NCBI GenBank assembly: GCA_009921765.1
Contig: RFXC01000145.1
Span: forward strand, 1-11,159
From: Betaproteobacteria bacterium
Lineage (GTDB): Bacteria; Pseudomonadota; Gammaproteobacteria; Burkholderiales; Burkholderiaceae
DNA: 11,159 bases
Direction: 5' to 3'
Position numbers and translations under genes: made by a program. This document shows positions 1,788 to 11,159 of the stretch, piece by piece. The notes beneath the pieces were generated by a model, which worked only from the letters and a program-made list of their open reading frames with translations, searched no databases and was not told the origin of the DNA. The first letter of the stretch is position 1. Each line of letters starts with the position of its first letter.

Positions 1788-1939
1788 GAACGAGTGGTTG
1801 CAAATCGACTTGCCCAGACAGCGCCCGAAGGTCTTCCCATGCCCTTGCCTGCCGGATGCGATCCACAAGCTCCGCGGGCGGTGTGTCGGCACTGCATGGA
1901 AGCTGCTATGCTCGGTTCGTATCCCACCCTTCCAGATTT

Positions 1940-3130
1940 ATGGGAGACCACCCCTTGGTGATGGCCCCAGAGCCGAACCCCGCTCCCACTCATTGGTGGG
2001 AGCCTCAGGCCGGTGAGCCCACGCTGGTCTCGGAGGCCCGGCTGCCCCTGGACCACGACGCCGCGGCCTTCCGTCGAGGCGAGGAGGCCGGGCTGCTCAA
2101 GCGCTTCTCGCGCCACGGCGTGCGCTACCTGGTCGCGCCCACCGGGGGCAGCGGCACGTCCGACGTGGTGCGCTACGGCAACGGGATCGAGGTCAACGTC
2201 AACAACATCGTGCTGCGCGTGCTGCGGCGGCGCCGCTACATCGCCGACGAGGCCCTGGTCATCCTGCGTGCGTCGCTGAGCTGCGATACGGTCTTCACCG
2301 AGGAGAACTCGCCGCCGATCGCCTTCACTCGCCCGGAGCTGACCCTGGTCTGCGTGCCCTGCGGGATGCGCTACACGGTAGACGTTCGGGGTGGCGTTCG
2401 AAACCAGGGCCTGCATGGCCTGTTCAGGCCAGGGGCGCTCACCGCGGCCTACGGTCTGCGGCCCGAGGACTTCCCCCCGGTCGTACGCGACGCCTTGACA
2501 GGCACGGCAGGGTTCGGCCGTGTGATCTCCCTGCCGCTGGACCACCACGTGGCGGCGCTGGTGGCCGACACCATCGACACCCCGCTGGAGGGCGAGATGC
2601 GCGCGCTGCAGTACGCAGGCCGCCTGGCCGAACTGGTGGCCTACACGATGGATGCGGTGCGCCGCCATCCTCCCGAGGCCCTGCCCGCCGTCCAGTCCAC
2701 CACGGCAGTGGGGACCTCCCTGCCCCTGGGCTGGCGCACCGCCGATCTGGCTCAGTTGGCGCTGGCACGTCTGGCCCGGCAGTACCGCAAGCCGCCACAT
2801 TTCACCGAGCTCGCGCGTGACCTGGGCACCAACCCGAACAAGCTTCAGGCTTCCTTCAAGGCCGCGTTCGGCATCACCATGGGTGAGTACTGCCTGGAGC
2901 GCCGCATGCGCGAGGCGCAGCAGTTGTTGCTGGAAGGCAAGCTCAGCGTGGCCGATGTGGCCGAGCGCGTGGGTTATGGCCATCAGAGCAATTTCGCTGC
3001 GGCGTTCACGGCGCACCTGGGCATGTCGCCGCGGGAGTACCGCCGCCACCGCGCGCCCGTGCACGTGTCGCTGGGCGCGGCCGAGGCCGACCTGGCCATA
3101 CAGCCGTCTCGCGGCAGCGGACGGCCGTAG
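1940..3130 (+). CDS. AraC-family transcriptional regulator, PchR-like
   Basis: A 396-residue protein if started at ATG 1940. The N-terminal half (about residues 40-200) is a probable effector-sensing domain rich in beta-strand-like segments, with a GLHGLFRP motif near 158-165. The C-terminal 110 residues form the AraC/XylS double helix-turn-helix domain. The first HTH is around 288-310 (FTELARDLGTNPNKLQASFK). The second is around 335-358 (SVADVAERVGYGHQSNFAAAF), followed by the signature GMSPREYRR. The PPHFTELARDLGTNPNKL pattern recalls PchR/YbtA-type regulators, which commonly control TonB-dependent receptors in response to the ligand taken up. That comparison is from memory. The start is uncertain: ATG 1940 has no clear Shine-Dalgarno sequence, while ATG 1961 (389 residues) has GGGAG 14 bases upstream. 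ATG 1940 is preserved in the decayed copy at 6169, but the base matching 1961 is changed there. The frame is open far upstream, but only as a shadow of the lyase gene. Confidence 0.85.
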   Translation: MGDHPLVMAPEPNPAPTHWWEPQAGEPTLVSEARLPLDHDAAAFRRGEEAGLLKRFSRHGVRYLVAPTGGSGTSDVVRYGNGIEVNVNNIVLRVLRRRRYIADEALVILRASLSCDTVFTEENSPPIAFTRPELTLVCVPCGMRYTVDVRGGVRNQGLHGLFRPGALTAAYGLRPEDFPPVVRDALTGTAGFGRVISLPLDHHVAALVADTIDTPLEGEMRALQYAGRLAELVAYTMDAVRRHPPEALPAVQSTTAVGTSLPLGWRTADLAQLALARLARQYRKPPHFTELARDLGTNPNKLQASFKAAFGITMGEYCLERRMREAQQLLLEGKLSVADVAERVGYGHQSNFAAAFTAHLGMSPREYRRHRAPVHVSLGAAEADLAIQPSRGSGRP

Positions 3131-3132
3131 CT

Positions 3133-3222
3133 GGCGCGACCGCCCCCCGCTGGTTGGATCGCATAAGTTTTCGTGCCGGCGTCGAAATCGATTCACGCCG
3201 CTGACGGCTAGCCTTCATCGGG
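3133..3222 (+). promoter_or_regulatory. Duplicated promoter/operator-like block upstream of the M55 operon
   Basis: This intergenic block starts just after the regulator stop (3128-3130) and matches 6301-6390 without gaps, at about 81 of 90 bases (74 of 80 over 3143-3222). In both places it is non-coding and ends 106 or 72 bp before the next gene start. The following leaders are unrelated, so the similarity stops sharply at GGG. Within it lies an imperfect inverted arrangement: TGGATC (3155-3160) and TTTTCG (3168-3173) face CGAAAT (3183-3188) and GATTCA (3190-3195). A weak promoter could be TCGATT (3188-3193) with TAGCCT (3209-3214), but the 15-base spacer is short. The region is locally AT-richer than its surroundings. 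A binding site for the AraC-type regulator plus the operon promoter is the natural reading, but it is inferred. Confidence 0.5.
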
Positions 3223-3328: not shown

Positions 3329-4144
3329 ATGAAGGTCTACATCAGCGTGGACATCGAGGGGGTGGCCTGCGTCGCCGCGCCTGAAGAGGTCGATATGGCT
3401 CAGGGCGCGCAGTACGAGCCCTTCCGCCACCAAATGACCGCCGAGGCCATGGCCGCCTGCCGCGGCGCGTGGGCCGCCGGCGCACGCTGCGTTGTCGTGA
3501 AGGACGCGCACTGGACCGGCCGCAACCTGGATCCGCACGCGATGCAGGCGCAGGAAGGCAAGGAACTGCAACTGATTCGCGGCTGGAGTGGGCACCCGTT
3601 GGCGATGGTGCAGGGACTTGACGAGAGCTTCGACGCGGTGGTCTTCGTCGGGTATCACGCGGCAGCGGGCGTCGCCGGCAACCCACTCGCACACACTTTC
3701 TCGGGGCGCCGATTCGCCAGGGTCGAACTGAATGGCCGAGTGGCTTCGGAGTACCTGCTGTATGCGCACGCCGCGGCCAGCGTCGGTGTGCCGCTGGTCT
3801 TCGTCTCGGGCGACGAGGCGGTTTGCGCTCAGGCCGCTGCCGACATCGACGGCCTCGTCACGGTACCGGTGCTGCGCGGCGAAGGCCCGTCGACGATCTC
3901 GCTGCCGCCGGCCGAGTCGGTGCGGCGCATCGAGGCGGGTGTGAGCAAGGCCCTGATGTCCCCCCGCCCTGCGCTTCTTCGCCCGCCGTCCCGGGTGCAA
4001 CTTCGACTCGTGTTCCGCAGCGCGGCCGACGCCTATGCCAAGTCGTTCTTCCCTGGGGCGCGCACCGTCTCGGACACGACGCTCGAATTGAAGAGCCGCG
4101 ACTACCGGGCGGCGCTGACCTTCCTGTTGTATTGCGCGCAGTGA
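3329..4144 (+). CDS. M55 family metallopeptidase, DppA-type D-aminopeptidase
   Basis: A 271-residue zinc aminopeptidase of the DppA family, whose characterised Bacillus member removes N-terminal D-alanine from short peptides and assembles as a ring-shaped decamer. The expected metal ligands are present: D8 and E10 in SVDIEG, H61 in KDAHW, H110 in VGYHAAAG, and E141 in the NGRVASE segment. H122 in the AHTFSG segment matches the catalytic histidine of DppA. Length is close to the family norm of about 270-280. There is no signal peptide, so it should act in the cytoplasm. The start has a strong GAGGAA at 3315-3320, eight bases away. It is the first gene after the regulator and the duplicated regulatory block, and probably leads an operon with the 86-residue protein and the amidase. 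Substrate specificity cannot be read from sequence; other D- or L-aminopeptidase activity is possible. Confidence 0.88.
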   Translation: MKVYISVDIEGVACVAAPEEVDMAQGAQYEPFRHQMTAEAMAACRGAWAAGARCVVVKDAHWTGRNLDPHAMQAQEGKELQLIRGWSGHPLAMVQGLDESFDAVVFVGYHAAAGVAGNPLAHTFSGRRFARVELNGRVASEYLLYAHAAASVGVPLVFVSGDEAVCAQAAADIDGLVTVPVLRGEGPSTISLPPAESVRRIEAGVSKALMSPRPALLRPPSRVQLRLVFRSAADAYAKSFFPGARTVSDTTLELKSRDYRAALTFLLYCAQ

Positions 4145-4220: not shown

Positions 4221-4481
4221 ATGAGCAATCAACAGAGCGCCAATGACAACGCGTCTATGGCGCCGGGTGCCGGGGAGGCGGGTCCCGCCGACGACGACAT
4301 CGCGGCCCTGCTGGAACAGCAGGGCCATGCGCGCGCTGTGATCGGTGGGCTGTCGATGGGCGGCGGGGTGGCGACCATCTTTCACGAGCTGTATCGGGCG
4401 CGCGTCCTCGGCACGGACCCGTTCGTGCTGCGTGACCTGCAGGCGCTGCTGGAGCGGGCGAAGGCCGGCACCCCATGCTAA
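4221..4481 (+). CDS. Small protein of unknown function, translationally coupled to the amidase
   Basis: An 86-residue protein that I do not recognise. Support for a real gene: GGGAG at 4210-4214 is six bases before ATG, third codon positions are strongly G/C, and its TAA overlaps the amidase start as ATGCTAA (4475-4481). The first 25 residues are polar and acidic (MSNQQSANDN, then EAGPADDD). Residues about 26-55 read DIAALLEQQGHARAVIGGLSMGGGVA, which resembles the nucleophile-elbow segment of alpha/beta-hydrolases (GLSMG fits G-x-S-x-G). The rest of that fold is absent, and the C-terminus looks helical and charged. It may be a decayed or repurposed hydrolase fragment, or a small partner of the amidase by analogy with the small GatC-like partners of some amidases, though it does not look like GatC. 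No signal peptide is seen. Confidence 0.65.
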   Translation: MSNQQSANDNASMAPGAGEAGPADDDIAALLEQQGHARAVIGGLSMGGGVATIFHELYRARVLGTDPFVLRDLQALLERAKAGTPC

Positions 4482-5926
4482 GCCTGACCGAGTACGCGCG
4501 CGCCGATGCGCATGAGCTGATGCGATGGGTACGCCGCGGAGAGGTCAGCGCGCAGGAGCTCAGCCGTTGCGCGCTGCGGGCAATCGATGCCCTGGATCCG
4601 CAATTGAACTTCATGGTGTCGCGATCCGTGGGCGCCGACGCGCTACCGGCACCCGGAACGGAGAGGGCAGCCTTTCATGGACTGCCCTTTCTGGCCAAGT
4701 CCAATGGCGGTACCCGTGGCCAGCCGATGGCCATGGCCAGCCGCCTCGCACACGGCCTGGTAAGCCCGCACGACAGCGAATTCGTCCGACGCCTGCGCGC
4801 CACGGGCATCGCGCTGCTGGGCAGCACCAACGTGCCGGAGTTCGGCAGCTCGCCCACCACCGAGTCCGTGCTGCACGGGCCAGCACGCAACCCGTGGAAC
4901 CTGGCACATAGCTGCGGGGGATCCTCCGGCGGATCGTCTGCGGCCGTGGCCGCCGGTGTCGTGCCTGTGGCCCAGAGTACGGACGGCGGCGGATCCATCC
5001 GCACACCCGCCCACTGCTGCGGGGTTTTCGGGCTCAAGCCGAGCCGGGGACGAAACCCTTCAGGGCTTGGCGGGCAGGGGGGGCCCTTCGGCATTGGCTG
5101 CGCGCATGTGGCCACCCGTAGCGTGCGCGACTCGGCAGCCTTCCTGGACGCGACCGCAGGCGATGAACCCGGGGCGTTGTACCGCTGCGTGCCTCCCGAA
5201 CGGCCCTTTGCCGACGAGGTGGGCCGAAGCCCGGGGCGGTTGCGCGTGGCCTTGTGGACAGGCAGCCCCTCGGGCGTGGGCATGGACCCAGCCTGCACCG
5301 AGGCCGTAATCCATGCGGCGCGACATCTTGCGGCGCTGGGCCACGCTGTAGAGGAGGCCTCGCCGCCGCTGCCTTGGGAGGACTTTGTACAGGCCATGCT
5401 GGATCTTTGGTCCCTGGGGTTTCCGCTCGCAGTCGCGGAACTCGCACAACTCAGTGGTCGCTCGCCCGGGCTGGACACTCTTGAATCGAGTTCTCTGCGC
5501 CTGTGGCAGCACGGCTTGGAGCTCACGCCCGAGCGCATCGAGCGCAGCACACGGACGATGCATCGTACAGTGTGCGAACTCGACCGGTTTCTGCAGCGGT
5601 TCGACGTGGTGCTCAGCGCGGTGGACATCCGGCCTGCGCCACGATTGGGTGAGATTGATGCCAATGGTCCCTGGGTCAATGCCCGGGCCTGGTTCGACGC
5701 GGCGGTGACGCAGTTCTGTCCCCACACCCCCCTCTATAACTTCGGTGGCCAGCCGGCGATGGCAGTGCCCTGGTCCCGAAGCCCCGCCGGGCTTCCGGTG
5801 GGCGTGCAGTTCGCTGCGCAGTGGGGCGGCGAGGCGGTGCTGCTCAGACTTGCCGCCCAGCTGGAAGCCACCCACCCCTGGGCCGACAACCTTGCGCCGC
5901 TGCACGCGGCCCGACTGGAAAACTGA
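4475..5926 (+). CDS. Amidase-signature family hydrolase (NylA-like)
   Basis: A 483-residue enzyme of the amidase signature family, which hydrolyses carboxamide bonds with a Ser-cisSer-Lys triad. The triad is K75 (LPFLAKSNGG), S150 (GGSSGGSS, the cis-serine) and S174 (DGGGSIRTPA). The spacings of 75 and 24 residues equal those of K142/S217/S241 in the well-studied FAAH. The segment from RNPWNL through CCGVFGLKPSRGRNP resembles 6-aminohexanoate-cyclic-dimer hydrolase (NylA)-like amidases more than GatA. The true substrate is unknown. The lysine is followed by SN rather than the common D, a mild oddity. There is no signal peptide, so it should be cytoplasmic. The start at 4475 overlaps the preceding stop, with GAAGG at 4460-4464; the stop TGA overlaps the ATG of a truncated hydrolase gene. 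A role in opening a cyclic or blocked peptide handled by the neighbouring peptidases is inferred. Confidence 0.88.
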   Translation: MLSLTEYARADAHELMRWVRRGEVSAQELSRCALRAIDALDPQLNFMVSRSVGADALPAPGTERAAFHGLPFLAKSNGGTRGQPMAMASRLAHGLVSPHDSEFVRRLRATGIALLGSTNVPEFGSSPTTESVLHGPARNPWNLAHSCGGSSGGSSAAVAAGVVPVAQSTDGGGSIRTPAHCCGVFGLKPSRGRNPSGLGGQGGPFGIGCAHVATRSVRDSAAFLDATAGDEPGALYRCVPPERPFADEVGRSPGRLRVALWTGSPSGVGMDPACTEAVIHAARHLAALGHAVEEASPPLPWEDFVQAMLDLWSLGFPLAVAELAQLSGRSPGLDTLESSSLRLWQHGLELTPERIERSTRTMHRTVCELDRFLQRFDVVLSAVDIRPAPRLGEIDANGPWVNARAWFDAAVTQFCPHTPLYNFGGQPAMAVPWSRSPAGLPVGVQFAAQWGGEAVLLRLAAQLEATHPWADNLAPLHAARLEN

Positions 5927-6093
5927 TGACCCGTTCGATCCCGGGGCGTCTGTCGGAGGGCATCGAAGCGGCGGTGGGTCCGCTGCACGCTGCGTTGCGG
6001 GAGCAGATCACCCGGCACCGGGTGCCCGGCGCGTCCATTGCGGTGTGGCAAGACGGCGAGGCTGCTGCGGCCAGCGGTGGACGAGCGGGATGA
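5926..6093 (+). pseudogene. Truncated serine hydrolase (beta-lactamase family), N-terminal fragment only
   Basis: Fifty-five codons from ATG 5926, whose A is the last base of the amidase stop (TGATG), to TGA 6091-6093. GGAA at 5917-5920 could serve as ribosome site. The peptide has an N-terminal helix (about residues 10-30) followed by HRVPGASIAVWQDGEAAAASG, the usual opening strand pair of beta-lactamase-like S12 serine hydrolases and esterases. The protein then stops: the SxxK nucleophile motif, the YxN motif and the rest of the roughly 350-400 residue fold are missing, and none of these motifs was seen in the following 70 bp. It was probably once the last coupled gene of the M55-amidase operon and lost its 3' part when the junction with the next module formed. 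It is not a close copy of the hydrolase at 10380. A functional short peptide is unlikely. Confidence 0.65.
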
Positions 6094-6161
6094 TCACGTC
6101 GGCGTGGGAGGTCATGGCAAGGCAGCCGCGCCAGTGGGGTGGGGTCGCAAGACCGTGGCCA
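6094..6161. other. Unassigned spacer between two gene remnants
   Basis: These 68 bases lie between the truncated hydrolase fragment and the first matching base of the regulator remnant. I see no convincing coding signal, hairpin or match to other parts of the window. They may be scrambled leftovers of either neighbour. Confidence 0.4.
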
Positions 6162-6390
6162 CAGATTTATGGGAGACCATCCCTTGGTGACGGCCCCATA
6201 GCCCGGAACCGACCCTGGTCTGCGTGCCCGGCGGCATGCGCTTCGCGGTGGATGTTCGGGGTGGCCTTCGAAACCAGCGCCTGCATGGCCTGTTCAGGCC
6301 GGCGCGGCGACCCCCCGCTGGTTGAATCGCATAAATTTTCGTGGCGGCGTCGAAATTGATTCACGCTTCTGACGGCTAGCCTTCATCGGG
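6162..6390 (+). pseudogene. Decayed second copy of the AraC/PchR-like regulator gene with its downstream regulatory block
   Basis: Three collinear pieces match the intact regulator locus. Block A is 6162-6203 against 1933-1974 (39 of 42 identical) and includes the start codon (ATG 6169). Block B is 6201-6300 against 2331-2430 (90 of 100, ungapped), covering part of the sensing domain down to GLHGLFRP. Block C is 6301-6390 against 3133-3222 (about 81 of 90), which is the intergenic block after the regulator. About 359 bp between A and B and about 702 bp between B and C are missing, including the whole DNA-binding domain. Reading from ATG 6169, a TAG appears after ten codons where the intact gene has GAG. 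Blocks A and B are in different frames. It therefore cannot encode a regulator. The third block may still function as promoter or operator for the receptor gene 72 bp downstream. Confidence 0.82.
6301..6390 (+). promoter_or_regulatory. Second copy of the promoter/operator-like block, upstream of the TonB receptor gene
   Basis: This is the partner of 3133-3222. Here the inverted arrangement is better: TGAATC (6323-6328) and TTTTCG (6336-6341) face CGAAAT (6351-6356) and GATTCA (6358-6363). The outer six-base arms are a perfect inverted pair, though the inner and outer pairs do not share a centre. TTGATT (6356-6361) with TAGCCT (6377-6382) is a possible promoter with a short 15-base spacer. The block retains about 92% identity over 6311-6390 although the regulator coding sequence beside it has been mostly deleted, which is what selection on a regulatory site would give. 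Recent duplication alone could also explain it. Confidence 0.5.
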
Positions 6391-6450
6391 TCGACGGCGC
6401 AGGGAAGTCGCCGATCGCAAGCTCATGTGCCGTGCATCTTGCGGCCCACG

Positions 6451-6456
6451 AAAGGA
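6451..6456 (+). promoter_or_regulatory. Ribosome binding site deciding the receptor start
   Basis: AAAGGA sits six bases before ATG 6463. The earlier in-frame ATG at 6427 has no such site and would put twelve extra residues ahead of a normal signal peptide, so 6463 is preferred. Confidence 0.7.
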
Positions 6457-6462
6457 CGCCCC

Positions 6463-8787
6463 ATGAAGACCCGAAGCCATCCCCCCGTAGCACCGTCTTT
6501 TGCACGCGCCTGTCGTGCGGCAGGTCTGAGGCCCTGGTGGGCTCCTGGCCTGCTGGCCGCGGCCATCACCAGTGCCTACGCGCAGACCCCGTCCTCGCCG
6601 GTGCCCTCGGCCTCGGCTGCGGGTAGCCCCACCGCACAGAACAAGGACGAAGCCAAGGCAGAAGGTGGCGCCAATCTCCAGACGGTTACCGTCTCCGCCA
6701 CCCGCCGGCGCGAACTGGTGCGTGAAGTGCCCCTGGCAATCTCCACCATCTCCACAGACCAGCTGGCCGAGACCGGCGCCAAGAGCCTGAGCGACTACAT
6801 CGCCAACCAGCCGGGGGTCGTGCTGCAGAACAACACCCTGGCCGATGGCAACGGCAGCCTGGTCGTCCGGGGCCTCACGGTCGGGCTCGACAATTCGCCT
6901 ACGACGGCGATCTACGCCGACGACGTCCCGATCGGTTCGAGCTTCTCGGCTTCACTGCCGTTGTTCGACATGACCCTGCTGGACCTCGGCCGCATCGAGT
7001 TGCTGCGCGGGCCACAGGGCACGCTGTACGGCACCGCCGCCATGGGCGGCGTGCTGAAGTACGTGACCAATGCGCCCGACACGGGCAGCCGTTCAGGCCG
7101 CGTCAGCCTCGGGCTGTCGAGCACGCACAACGGGTCCCTGAACCGGGTCGCCACGGGTGCCTTCAACGTGCCGCTGCAGCAGGATGTGGCCGCCTTGCGG
7201 GTGGCGGTTTTCGACAGCCACGACGCCGGCTACATCGATGCGACGGGCCCCTTCGCCGGCTCGCGCGTCAACCGCAAGGACCGCAGCGGCGGGCGCGTCT
7301 CGCTCCTGCTGACGCCAGGGCGCGACCTGAGCATCAAGCTCACGGCCATGCAACAGCGCTCCACCTCGGAAGGCAGCGACAAGATCGCCTATGGGCCTGT
7401 CACCCGCGCGCCCATCGCTGGCGAGCTCGTCAACGCCAACCTCGGTGCCGCGGAGCCCAGCAAGATCGATCTCAGCCTGTACTCGCTGACGCTCGACTAC
7501 GACCTGGGTTGGGCGCGCTTTTCCTCGATCACCGCGACGCAGGACTATCAATACAAGGTTCGCACCGACCTCAGCGACTACTTCGGGCGACTGCTGGCCG
7601 GGACCGGGCTCGGTATCACGTCTTCCTACGCCGAGGTGAATTCGAGGACGAAGAAAGACACGCAGGAGTTCCGGCTGGTGTCGCAGACCGGGGGCACGTT
7701 CGACTGGCTGGTCGGTGCGTTCTACGTCAAGGAAGATGCGCGCCTGTTGAATTCCTACTTCGCGCAAAGCGCCGTCCTCGGGCCCGTCTATCTCATCGGA
7801 CCGGAAGCGCCCACCTCGGGAACGGGCCAGGAGTACTCCGTCTACGGCAACGTGACCTGGAACGTCAGCAAGGCGTTGAGCCTGACCGCCGGCCTGCGCG
7901 CGGCACATAACAAGGGCAGCGGCTCCAGCACCAACTTCGGGCTCCTGGTCGGGCCTGTGCCGGTCGTCACCACCCCGCCGGAGGCCTCCGACTCGCCGAC
8001 GACCTACCTGCTGACGGCCAAGTACAAGCTGTCGCCTCAAAGCAACGTGTACTTCCGCGCAGCCAGCGGATACCGCACCGGCGGCGCCAATCCCACCCCC
8101 ACCGACCCGACCACGGGCAAGCCGGTGCCCGGCGTGCCGGCGAACTACCGATCCGACACTGTGTGGAGCTACGAGGCCGGCTACAAGGCCAACTTCCCTG
8201 GCGCCCGGGCCAGCGTGGAGGCGGCGCTGTTCGACATCGAGTGGAAGGACCTGCAGCAGTACGAGTTCATTCCGCTGGCAAGCTACCTGACCAACGTCGG
8301 CAGGGCGCGTATCCGGGGGCTCGAGCTTGCCGGCTCGGTTGAAGCCGCGAAGGGCTTGACCTTGAGCGGGTCTGCGGTGGTGTTGGACCCGGTCCTGCTC
8401 GATCCTTCGGCCTCGCTTCAGGCTTCGGCCGGTGCGCGGCTGCCGAGCTCTCCCCGGGTCGCCGCCAACGTCGCGGCGCGATACAGGTTCTCGTTGGCCG
8501 ACAAGCCCGCTTTTGCGGCCGCCACCCTGAACCATGTGGGCGAGCGCAATTCCAGCTTTGTCGAGTCCAAGGCACAGCCCAACTTCGTGCTGCCCGCATA
8601 CACCCAACTCGACCTGTCGGGCGGCGTCACGGTCGGAAAGGCAGATATTGGTGTCTTCGTGCGCAACGCCACCGACAAGAGAGGCCTGGTCTCCGCATTC
8701 ACCGCGCAGTCGGCGGTCGGGGCACCGATCATGGTGCGTGTCATCGAGCCGCGAACCGTCGGCGTCAATGCCTCCTGGGCGTTCTGA
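6463..8787 (+). CDS. TonB-dependent outer-membrane receptor
   Basis: A 774-residue outer-membrane transporter that takes up a ligand using TonB-ExbBD energy. Residues 1-40 form a signal peptide: a basic start, a hydrophobic run ending LLAAAITSAYA, and probable cleavage after A40. A low-complexity Pro/Ser/Ala linker is followed by a TonB-box-like QTVTVSAT at 73-80. The plug domain (about 85-205) contains SLVVRGL and the conserved RIELLRGPQGTLYGTAAMGGVLKYVT stretch. The remainder is a 22-strand barrel of normal length ending in NASWAF, with the C-terminal phenylalanine expected for Bam-dependent assembly. No N-terminal signalling domain of the FpvA/FecA type is present. The plug and barrel style is that of the large iron-complex receptor family, but many members import other substrates. 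The nearby hydrolases and the absence of siderophore genes suggest a peptide or other organic ligand. It is preceded by the duplicated regulatory block and followed by an MFS gene. Confidence 0.93.
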   Translation: MKTRSHPPVAPSFARACRAAGLRPWWAPGLLAAAITSAYAQTPSSPVPSASAAGSPTAQNKDEAKAEGGANLQTVTVSATRRRELVREVPLAISTISTDQLAETGAKSLSDYIANQPGVVLQNNTLADGNGSLVVRGLTVGLDNSPTTAIYADDVPIGSSFSASLPLFDMTLLDLGRIELLRGPQGTLYGTAAMGGVLKYVTNAPDTGSRSGRVSLGLSSTHNGSLNRVATGAFNVPLQQDVAALRVAVFDSHDAGYIDATGPFAGSRVNRKDRSGGRVSLLLTPGRDLSIKLTAMQQRSTSEGSDKIAYGPVTRAPIAGELVNANLGAAEPSKIDLSLYSLTLDYDLGWARFSSITATQDYQYKVRTDLSDYFGRLLAGTGLGITSSYAEVNSRTKKDTQEFRLVSQTGGTFDWLVGAFYVKEDARLLNSYFAQSAVLGPVYLIGPEAPTSGTGQEYSVYGNVTWNVSKALSLTAGLRAAHNKGSGSSTNFGLLVGPVPVVTTPPEASDSPTTYLLTAKYKLSPQSNVYFRAASGYRTGGANPTPTDPTTGKPVPGVPANYRSDTVWSYEAGYKANFPGARASVEAALFDIEWKDLQQYEFIPLASYLTNVGRARIRGLELAGSVEAAKGLTLSGSAVVLDPVLLDPSASLQASAGARLPSSPRVAANVAARYRFSLADKPAFAAATLNHVGERNSSFVESKAQPNFVLPAYTQLDLSGGVTVGKADIGVFVRNATDKRGLVSAFTAQSAVGAPIMVRVIEPRTVGVNASWAF

Positions 8788-8877: not shown

Positions 8878-10311
8878 ATGACCCAAAGCGCAACTCCGCC
8901 GCTGGCCGCGGTGGAACCCCGAGCCCCGCGTTCGGCCTGGTACGCACTGGGCGTGCTGACGCTGGTGACGCTGCTGGCCTTCGTCGATCGCGGCGTGCTT
9001 GTTCTGCAGGCCGAGGTGATCCGCAAGGAGTTCGGCCTGTCCGACGTGCAATGGGGCTTCCTGCAGGGCACGGCACCCGCGGTCCTGATGGCGCTGGCAG
9101 CCTACCCGCTGGGCTGGCTGGCTGACCGGTTCGACCGCAGGGCGGTGCTCGCCGGCTGCGTGCTGCTGTGGGCCTCCGCCGTGGTGGCTTCCGGCATGGC
9201 CCAGAGCTACGAGCAGCTGCTGCTGGCCAGCGCGCTGGTGGCGGCTGGCGAGGCGGGTCTGGTGCCGATCGTCTACGCGCTGATTCCTGAGCTGTTCCCC
9301 CCCAGCCGCCGCCAGACCGCCAACTCCATCTACACCCTGGCGTCCGCCGTCAGCACCGGCCTCGCGCTCGGGTTGACCGGGCAGATCGTCGGCGTGGTGG
9401 AAGTGGTGCGGCCCGACCTGCCCCCCCTGTTGCAGACGGTGGACGGCTGGCGGCTGGCGATGTTTGCCGCGGCAGCGCCGGCACCGTTCATGGCATTGCT
9501 GCTTGGCACCATCGCGCTGCGCCGAGCAGAGCGTGGCGCCGAGCCAGCCGAGGCGGGCGGGCCCGCGGCGCAACACACGTCGGCCCTGCACACCGAGCCC
9601 TTTCTGCCGTACTTCAAGCAGCATTGGCGGACCTTCTGCGCCATCTTCGGCGGCGGGGCGCTGACTGGCTTCGGCTCGGCGGCCGTGGGGACCTGGCTTG
9701 CCGTGATCTACCAGCGGGTGTACGGCCAGACCGCACAGCAAGTGGGGGCCGTGCTCGGCGTCATTGCCGTGGCCGGAACGGCCATCGGCTTCCTCCTGAG
9801 CATCTGGGTCATCAAGCGATTCAGCCCGACCATGGGTCTGCGACTGAACATGCGGGTGATGGTGATGGCAGCCCTGGTGCTGGCGTGCAGCTTCGCTGCC
9901 ATGGTCTTCGCCACGCGTGCGGAGCACATGTACGCGATTCAGGCTGTCTACATCACGCTCGTCACCGTGGCCACCATGCTCGCTCCGAGCATCATGCAGA
10001 CGCTGGCACCGGGCCGGCTGCGAGCCCGCGTCGTGTCAATCCAGAGCGTCATCGGTGCCGCCGCTGCGGCCAGCGCACCGCCGGTGACGGGGTTGGTGTC
10101 GGACCAGCTCAAGCACCTGCCGAACGGCCTGATCCTGTCCTCGGCAATCATCGCCGTGCCTTGTCTGCTGGTGGCCGCGGTGTTGTTCTTCGTGGGTGAG
10201 CGCCTGTACGAAGCCACCGCCCTCGAGGCGAAGCGCATCGATCAGGAAGAAGACGGCGCGACTGCTCCAGCACCCATCCCGGAACCCGAAGGGCGGGGTG
10301 ACCTCCCATGA
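8878..10311 (+). CDS. MFS transporter, Spinster/anion:cation symporter-like
   Basis: A 477-residue inner-membrane carrier of the major facilitator superfamily with about twelve membrane helices (first at roughly 21-44, last at roughly 416-439). FVDRGVLVLQAEVIRKEFGLSD (35-56) resembles the first helix and loop of Spinster-like and organic-anion MFS proteins. Motif A is GWLADRFDRR at 79-88, between helices 2 and 3. A long hydrophilic loop at about 215-250 separates the two halves, and the C-terminal 35 residues are charged and cytoplasmic. No strong Shine-Dalgarno precedes ATG 8878 (GAAAG at 8865-8869 is the best). The gene lies between an outer-membrane receptor and a hydrolase gene, so import of the receptor's ligand or of a product is the simplest role. 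Export of a product cannot be excluded. Confidence 0.88.
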   Translation: MTQSATPPLAAVEPRAPRSAWYALGVLTLVTLLAFVDRGVLVLQAEVIRKEFGLSDVQWGFLQGTAPAVLMALAAYPLGWLADRFDRRAVLAGCVLLWASAVVASGMAQSYEQLLLASALVAAGEAGLVPIVYALIPELFPPSRRQTANSIYTLASAVSTGLALGLTGQIVGVVEVVRPDLPPLLQTVDGWRLAMFAAAAPAPFMALLLGTIALRRAERGAEPAEAGGPAAQHTSALHTEPFLPYFKQHWRTFCAIFGGGALTGFGSAAVGTWLAVIYQRVYGQTAQQVGAVLGVIAVAGTAIGFLLSIWVIKRFSPTMGLRLNMRVMVMAALVLACSFAAMVFATRAEHMYAIQAVYITLVTVATMLAPSIMQTLAPGRLRARVVSIQSVIGAAAAASAPPVTGLVSDQLKHLPNGLILSSAIIAVPCLLVAAVLFFVGERLYEATALEAKRIDQEEDGATAPAPIPEPEGRGDLP

Positions 10312-10379: not shown

Positions 10380-11159
10380 ATGCCAAAACGCAAGAAGACC
10401 GCACCACCACAACCTGCAGACCCTGCAACACCACAGCAGGGCGTGCTCGCCGCACTGGATGCGATCTTCGCGCCCGTGGACCGCAGCAACGCTCCGGGCC
10501 TGGTGGTGGGGGTGGCGCACCAGGGCCGCACGCTTTACTGCCGTGGCTTCGGGATGTCCAGCATCGAGCACGCCACGGCCAACACCCCGGCCACGCGCAT
10601 GCGCATCGGCTCGGCCACGAAGCACTTCACCTGCCTGGCCGTGCTGCTGCTGGCCGAGGAGGGCCTGCTGGACGTCGACGCACCCGTCACCCGCTACGTG
10701 CCCGAGCTGTCGGAACTGCTGGGCGCCCCCACGCTGCGGCAGCTGATGAACCACACGGGGGGCTTGCGCTGCTACCTGGATATCCTCGTCAGCGCGGGCG
10801 GCGCGGCCTTGCAGCCCAAGGGAAGGGCGTTGTCGGTGCTGGCTCAGCAGACCGGCGCCAACTTCGCCCCGGGCGACAAGCAGCTGTATTGCAACAGCGG
10901 CCACCACCTGATGTCCAAGGTGGTGGACCGCGTGGCCGGCATCCCGTTCGAGGATTTCCTGCAGCAGCGCATCTTCCAGCCCCTGGGCATGGCGGACACC
11001 GTGTGCGTGCCCAGCGACATGCAGATCCTGCCCGGCATGGCCACGCAGCACGTCGCGCAGTTGCAGCCTGGCGGCGGCATCGGCTGGCGTCGAGGGATCC
11101 TGCCGCCGGAGGAGCTTCGAGGAGAGGGCAGCATCGTCTCCACCGTCGGCGACATGCTG
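10380..11159 (+). CDS. Serine hydrolase, beta-lactamase/S12 family, D-aminopeptidase-like (3' partial)
   Basis: Exactly 260 codons are present from ATG 10380, and the frame is still open at the window end. The SxxK nucleophile motif is S78-A-T-K81 (SATKHFTCLAVLLLAEEG), and the second catalytic motif is Y170-C-N172 (LYCNSGHHL). NHTGGLRCYLD near 124-134 and FAPGDKQLYCN near 162-172 strongly recall the Ochrobactrum-type D-aminopeptidase (DAP) within S12, more than AmpC-type beta-lactamases. The third motif (HxG/KTG equivalent) lies beyond the window. The N-terminus is short and basic (MPKRKK, then Pro/Gln/Ala-rich) with no hydrophobic signal, so the enzyme should be cytoplasmic like DAP. ATG 10380 is the first reasonable start, with only a weak GAGAC upstream, 68 bp after the MFS stop. 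Related esterases and MlrB-like hydrolases share these motifs, so the substrate is open. Another frame overlaps at 10375-10746 but is a shadow. Confidence 0.87.
   Translation, partial: MPKRKKTAPPQPADPATPQQGVLAALDAIFAPVDRSNAPGLVVGVAHQGRTLYCRGFGMSSIEHATANTPATRMRIGSATKHFTCLAVLLLAEEGLLDVDAPVTRYVPELSELLGAPTLRQLMNHTGGLRCYLDILVSAGGAALQPKGRALSVLAQQTGANFAPGDKQLYCNSGHHLMSKVVDRVAGIPFEDFLQQRIFQPLGMADTVCVPSDMQILPGMATQHVAQLQPGGGIGWRRGILPPEELRGEGSIVSTVGDML

Follow-up and report, generated by a model that had tools for sequence, protein, structure and literature searches.

The window, i.e. the whole 11,159-nucleotide stretch of DNA that was analysed, is annotated as running from the end of a PutA-like gene and a PALP enzyme with an ACT domain to an AraC-family regulator (REG), an M55 family D-aminopeptidase, a small ORF, an amidase and a short ORF, followed by the fossil of a second regulator gene, a TonB-dependent receptor, an MFS transporter and an S12 hydrolase (Table 1). 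The best NCBIfam match of the S12 hydrolase is PRK13128 D-aminopeptidase, at a level far below the cut-off of that model, and from the gene families one may guess that the cluster serves the uptake and breakdown of D-amino-acid peptides. The 55-codon ORF starts at the amidase stop and ends before the fossil. It possibly represents the 5' portion of a gene that has since been lost; Pfam, NCBIfam and 81 genomes offer no support for its being a hydrolase remnant.

Table 1. Positions of genes and sequence features in the window.
Feature	Position	Strand	Description
ATTTATGGGAG	1936..1946	+	likely REG ribosome site; at the equivalent position in relatives possibly an auto-operator, too
REG, AraC-family regulator	1940..3130	+	open frame of 396 aa; HTH_18 E 8e-25
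Operator 1 (putative), ATCGCATAAGTTTTCGTGCC	3158..3177	+	upstream of M55 gene; 16.7 bits, motif trained without window
-10-like TAGCCT	3209..3214	+	+51 from operator 1 start
M55 family D-aminopeptidase	3329..4144	+	PF04951 E 1.6e-78
Small ORF, 86 aa	4221..4481	+	no Pfam match
Amidase	4475..5926	+	PF01425 E 5.8e-85
55-codon ORF	5926..6093	+	unmatched in Pfam, NCBIfam and 81 genomes
Fossil block 1	6162..6203	+	ribosome-site element and start of second regulator; 93% to 1933-1974
Fossil block 2	6201..6300	+	33 codons, middle of second regulator; 90% to 2331-2430
Block 3	6298..6390	+	putatively retained receptor promoter region with operator 2 and -10-like element; 89% to 3130-3222
Operator 2 (putative), ATCGCATAAATTTTCGTGGC	6326..6345	+	upstream of receptor; 24.2 bits, top match in window
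-10-like TAGCCT	6377..6382	+	+51 from operator 2
TonB-dependent receptor	6463..8787	+	PF00593, PF07715
MFS transporter	8878..10311	+	PF07690
S12/beta-lactamase-like hydrolase, D-aminopeptidase-like	10380..11159	+	PF00144; runs off window end

REG is assigned to the AraC/XylS family by its C-terminal HTH, which matches HTH_18 over residues 291–369 and HTH_AraC over residues 334–369 (E 1.2e-13). Its structural model, for which the alignment comprised 42 of the 120 listed proteins together with the window's own, contains a strand-rich N-terminal region (residues 53–162), where a member of this family would have its beta-barrel sensor domain, and the C-terminal HTH, with an overall pLDDT of 84.6. 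The best whole-chain Foldseek matches are ToxT and Rns, with TM-scores of 0.23–0.26 and rmsd values of ~18–20, only part of the chain being superposed. Judged from where relatives have their ribosome site, the start of REG may be TTG 1955 instead of ATG 1940.

Gene order in related loci

A contig search yielded a single close relative, L001, an uncultured beta-proteobacterium with a regulator sharing 70% identity with REG. Further relatives were found among the genomes of the family and genus of L001, in 7 of 399 at E≤1e-40 and in 17 of 81 at E≤1e-60. The comparisons are based on 25 of the 27 distinct regulator places, the weak matches G117:C61 (37%) and G035:C11 (34%) being left out. In 22 of these 25 loci the regulator lies directly upstream of a TonB-dependent receptor gene on the same strand, and this is the usual order in the relatives. 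In L017 the MFS gene stands between regulator and receptor, L018 has a divergent hydrolase, and in L049 the regulator follows the receptor, MFS, S12 and M55 genes. In the window nothing but the remains of a regulator adjoins the receptor on this side, and the usual order explains why they are found at this place. The original prediction had proposed a search of related genomes for a two-regulator version of the locus; no locus with two full tandem regulators was found among the 25, several of which are cut by contig ends. A weak second match in L020 (33%, HTH part only) was rejected as a second regulator copy.

The MFS transporter and S12 hydrolase are 69% and 74% identical between the window and L001, values close to that of the regulator; the identity of the receptors is 28%. 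The receptor of the window and that of L001 (4165–6459) thus look as if exchanged within a conserved cluster. The receptor type of the window occurs in L017 (49%) and that of L001 in L049 (53%). The amidase of the window is absent from every regulator locus read (25 loci); amidase matches at E≤1e-60 occur in 7 of 23 genomes, with identities of at most 45%, and none of them lies on a contig that carries one of the regulator loci read.

Remains of a second regulator gene

A repeat search of the window pairs three stretches upstream of the receptor gene with three stretches of the intact regulator locus, over 42, 100 and 93 nt, respectively (Table 1). The same pairs, besides the query itself, are returned by blastn of positions 6000–6480 against the window at a cut-off of E up to 1e-3 (E 2e-13, 4e-35 and 3e-31), and the rest of 6000–6480 has no match elsewhere in the window. 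All three blocks are collinear with the intact locus and lie on the identical strand. The copies differ at 3 of 42, 10 of 100 and 10 of 93 positions, and 6162–6175 equals 1933–1946 without a mismatch over 14 nt. According to the block offsets 359 bp have been deleted between blocks 1 and 2, which is not a multiple of three, and 702 bp between blocks 2 and 3, which is. Overlaps of 3 nt and 2 nt can be read from the printed sequences at the first and second junction, respectively. The HTH domain falls inside the second deletion, and the frame that opens at ATG 6169 reaches a TAG after ten codons.

These results bear out much of the original prediction, i.e. three blocks of about 90% identity in the same order and strand (the third starting at 3130 instead of 3133), loss of the DNA-binding domain and a stop after ten codons. 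Its view that all 229 bp derive from a dead regulator gene has to be revised, as the last 93 bp are promoter-like in their conservation: block 3 starts on the last base of the regulator stop codon (3128–3130) and hence lies beyond the regulator coding sequence. Homology and deletions are demonstrated at the sequence level. Blocks 1 and 2 (6162–6300) come, on this evidence, from the beginning and the middle of a second, dead AraC-family regulator gene, classed as a pseudogene by its homology to the intact gene combined with the two deletions, the lost HTH and the early stop.

At 27 of 33 positions the residues encoded by block 2 agree with the intact regulator and with P0001, its 99% counterpart. 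Among the 120 listed of the 321 proteins found, no other protein that covers all 33 positions reaches this value; P0004, P0003 and P0002 share 24, 22 and 22 residues, respectively. Since the fossil thus resembles the intact regulator more than it resembles these proteins, the split of the two copies seems recent, which suggests that they separated after their lineage had diverged from those of P0004, P0003 and P0002. Together with the gene order in 22 of 25 relatives, the similarity of block 2 supports the earlier claim that a closely related regulator once preceded the receptor gene. Two substitutions in the fossil, L134P and V153L, are found in none of 119 and none of 120 listed relatives, respectively, and a third, G157R, in 7 of 120. 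With L001 as outgroup, the 10 nucleotide differences in block 2 divide into 6 derived in the fossil, 3 derived in the intact copy and 1 ambiguous, a small sample in which the 6-to-3 split is insufficient to prove relaxed selection.

The promoter of the second regulator itself is probably missing as well. In relatives a TTAGGCT-like stretch, recognized by eye, lies ~20 nt before the regulator ribosome site and is taken as the regulator's own promoter; the left edge of the fossil at 6162 falls between this stretch and the ribosome site.

The mosaic regulator protein P0040 (254 aa, encoded on a 1005-bp contig, with an internal Met as its first residue) has the distinctive F145 and A146 of the fossil. 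Over REG residues 143–239 it shows no other difference from the intact regulator, and beyond this region it is mostly P0002-like. P0040 may be related to the second regulator, or it may be a chimera of short reads.

Operator-like motif and promoter-like region

From 23 regulator-to-target gaps, with the window excluded, a 20-nt motif, ATCGCCTAAATCTTCGGTGC, was obtained with a log-likelihood of 364 (best of 120 starts), compared with 62–72 for five base-shuffled sets, each represented by the best of its 30 starts. The gaps of L018 and L049, with no receptor or MFS gene downstream, were dropped from the 25; L024 was kept despite a best site of 9.4 bits, and the gap of L045, cut at 420 nt, contributed a wrong site, the real one lying ~650 nt downstream of the regulator. 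The two best matches in the window are the putative operators 2 and 1, each within a copy of block 3, with a higher score for operator 2 (24.2 bits) than for operator 1 (16.7 bits), and the third best reaches 6.0 bits. Of the 713,668 positions in the 25 loci that lie outside regulator neighbourhoods, none scores at least 16.7 bits and five score at least 12 bits. No site of at least 12 bits is present in L018, L024 and L049. Written as a pattern after the sites had been seen and with at most one mismatch allowed, the motif occurs in 19 of 23 genomes, at 20 places in total. Of these, 18 lie downstream of a REG-type regulator; the reversed control gives 3.

In the ungapped alignment of the sites, a TA dinucleotide is located at +51 in 22 of the 23 sites of relatives and at +52 in L019, while no other position between offsets 36 and 67 carries TA in more than 2 of 23 sites. 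In the window TAGCCT is found at +51 from both operators, and the coding sequences of the M55 gene and the receptor gene start 120 nt and 86 nt after this -10-like element, respectively. Scans of 5900–6480 for sigma-70 promoters and terminators found none. The block 3 copies have diverged no less than the copies of the coding blocks. Two of their 10 differences fall within the 26 positions of operator and -10 element, against a chance expectation of ~3, and the two window copies by themselves thus show no extra promoter constraint. The functional case comes from the conservation seen in the relatives. By this conservation block 3 appears to be a promoter-like region that has been kept for the receptor gene, with a predicted operator function.

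In the relatives ATTTAGGAG or a close variant is found immediately before the regulator start. TTTAGG occurs within 35 nt upstream of 19 of 22 REG starts, with start codons hand-picked from candidates and L017, L021 and L049 left out, versus 12 of 605 control ORFs, which may contain the regulators themselves. The minus strand of this element holds the operator core CCTAAAT and accounts for three further motif matches inside regulator neighbourhoods, of 17–20 bits and directly before the regulator start in L022, L050 and L051; in these loci the regulator may thus control itself through its ribosome site. Both window copies contain ATTTATGGGAG, with motif scores of -4.9 bits (intact copy) and 1.9 bits (fossil), so that the window by itself does not support an auto-operator at this element.

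Origin of the locus and relation to known systems

The arrangement in the window is best explained by two head-to-tail modules, each composed of a regulator, an operator-promoter and target genes, one with the M55 and amidase genes and the other with the receptor, MFS and S12 genes. The second regulator would have been redundant, which is the presumed cause of its decay; it would have lost its own promoter and, in two further deletions, the segments of 359 and 702 bp, so that 139 bp of coding fragments are left. The downstream operator and -10 element would have been retained because the receptor gene needs both. We infer that the surviving regulator binds at both sites and now most likely activates both promoters, and with them both operons. 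That the receptor once had its own regulator, which has since decayed while the promoter was kept, is very probable, and we have good confidence in the full account of two regulator-promoter-target modules, loss of the second regulator with retention of its promoter, and a single regulator left for two operons. Counting against it are the lack of a two-regulator stage and of the window's amidase in the regulator loci read, and the absence of extra constraint between the two copies of block 3.

As a variant of this account, the sister modules may have been recombined from different places or lineages instead of having arisen by tandem duplication, a course of events that we consider only slightly short of an even prospect. 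It would be in line with the presence in G035 of two such regulators (58–60%) on different contigs, in addition to a weaker one, with the position of an M55 gene beside the receptor, MFS and S12 genes in L049, and with the lack of other matches in the window for the sequence that surrounds the blocks. The recent split indicated by block 2, however, fits duplication at least as well. Promoter capture, by which a partial regulator-promoter copy was inserted before a receptor gene that never had a full second regulator at this place and thereby came under the existing one, is unlikely, since a regulator directly precedes the receptor in 22 of 25 relatives and the start and middle pieces of a regulator gene would be needless for a captured promoter. 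It does agree with the extent of the homology, which spans the regulator plus promoter only, from 7 nt before ATG 1940 to 8 nt past the -10 element, and with L017, where the receptor has an operator-like site to itself (14.6 bits) and is directly preceded by the MFS gene and not by the regulator.

The blocks might also still be functional as they stand. REG would then bind the block 1 element as well as operator 2, with the short intervening DNA forming a loop, which would make a compact two-site switch: the two sites are about 160 bp apart in the fossil, versus about 1.2 kb in the intact arrangement, and in relatives the element looks like an auto-operator of opposite orientation. Because of the low motif scores of the element in the window, such a switch is highly improbable. 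A mobile or dispersed repeat with a history separate from that of the regulator, which was also raised with the original prediction, can practically be dismissed. The 229 bp are not matched by any of 72,556 plasmid and 50,697 phage records, and only 5 of 81 genomes yield matches, which are short and weak (≤68 nt), in a search of low sensitivity that was limited to 8 scored candidates per genome and did not recover the homologous stretch of L001.

AraC-type regulators are paired with a TonB receptor gene in PchR-FptA, AlcR-FauA and YbtA-FyuA. Like these systems, the present family has an AraC regulator adjoining a TonB receptor gene and a conserved site before the receptor. Unlike in these systems, the partners in the window are a D-aminopeptidase, an amidase and an S12 hydrolase, with no siderophore biosynthesis genes recognized by Pfam among the ten ORFs of the window, and one regulator is accompanied by two operator-like sites with a fossil between them. 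Duplicated regulators turned into pseudogenes form a general class of bacterial gene decay, with which the fossil shares its deletions, loss of frame and absence of a DNA-binding domain. It differs from this class in that the adjoining promoter is recognizably intact, such that the cis element appears to have outlived its regulator. Nothing on this regulator-receptor pair or decay pattern was found in the literature searched, which does not extend to most papers in subscription journals.

The doubling of a module, followed by decay of one regulator and persistence of its promoter, would be a likely step from a local regulator-receptor pair to a small regulon. For the family of AraC-receptor pairs in genomes related to L001, an operator of approximately ATCGCMTAARTYTTYGGTGC with TA at +51 is predicted. 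In L017 two operator-like sites occur in one cluster, the site before the receptor and another of 21.1 bits before the MFS gene, which may be a further instance of a single regulator serving two target promoters.
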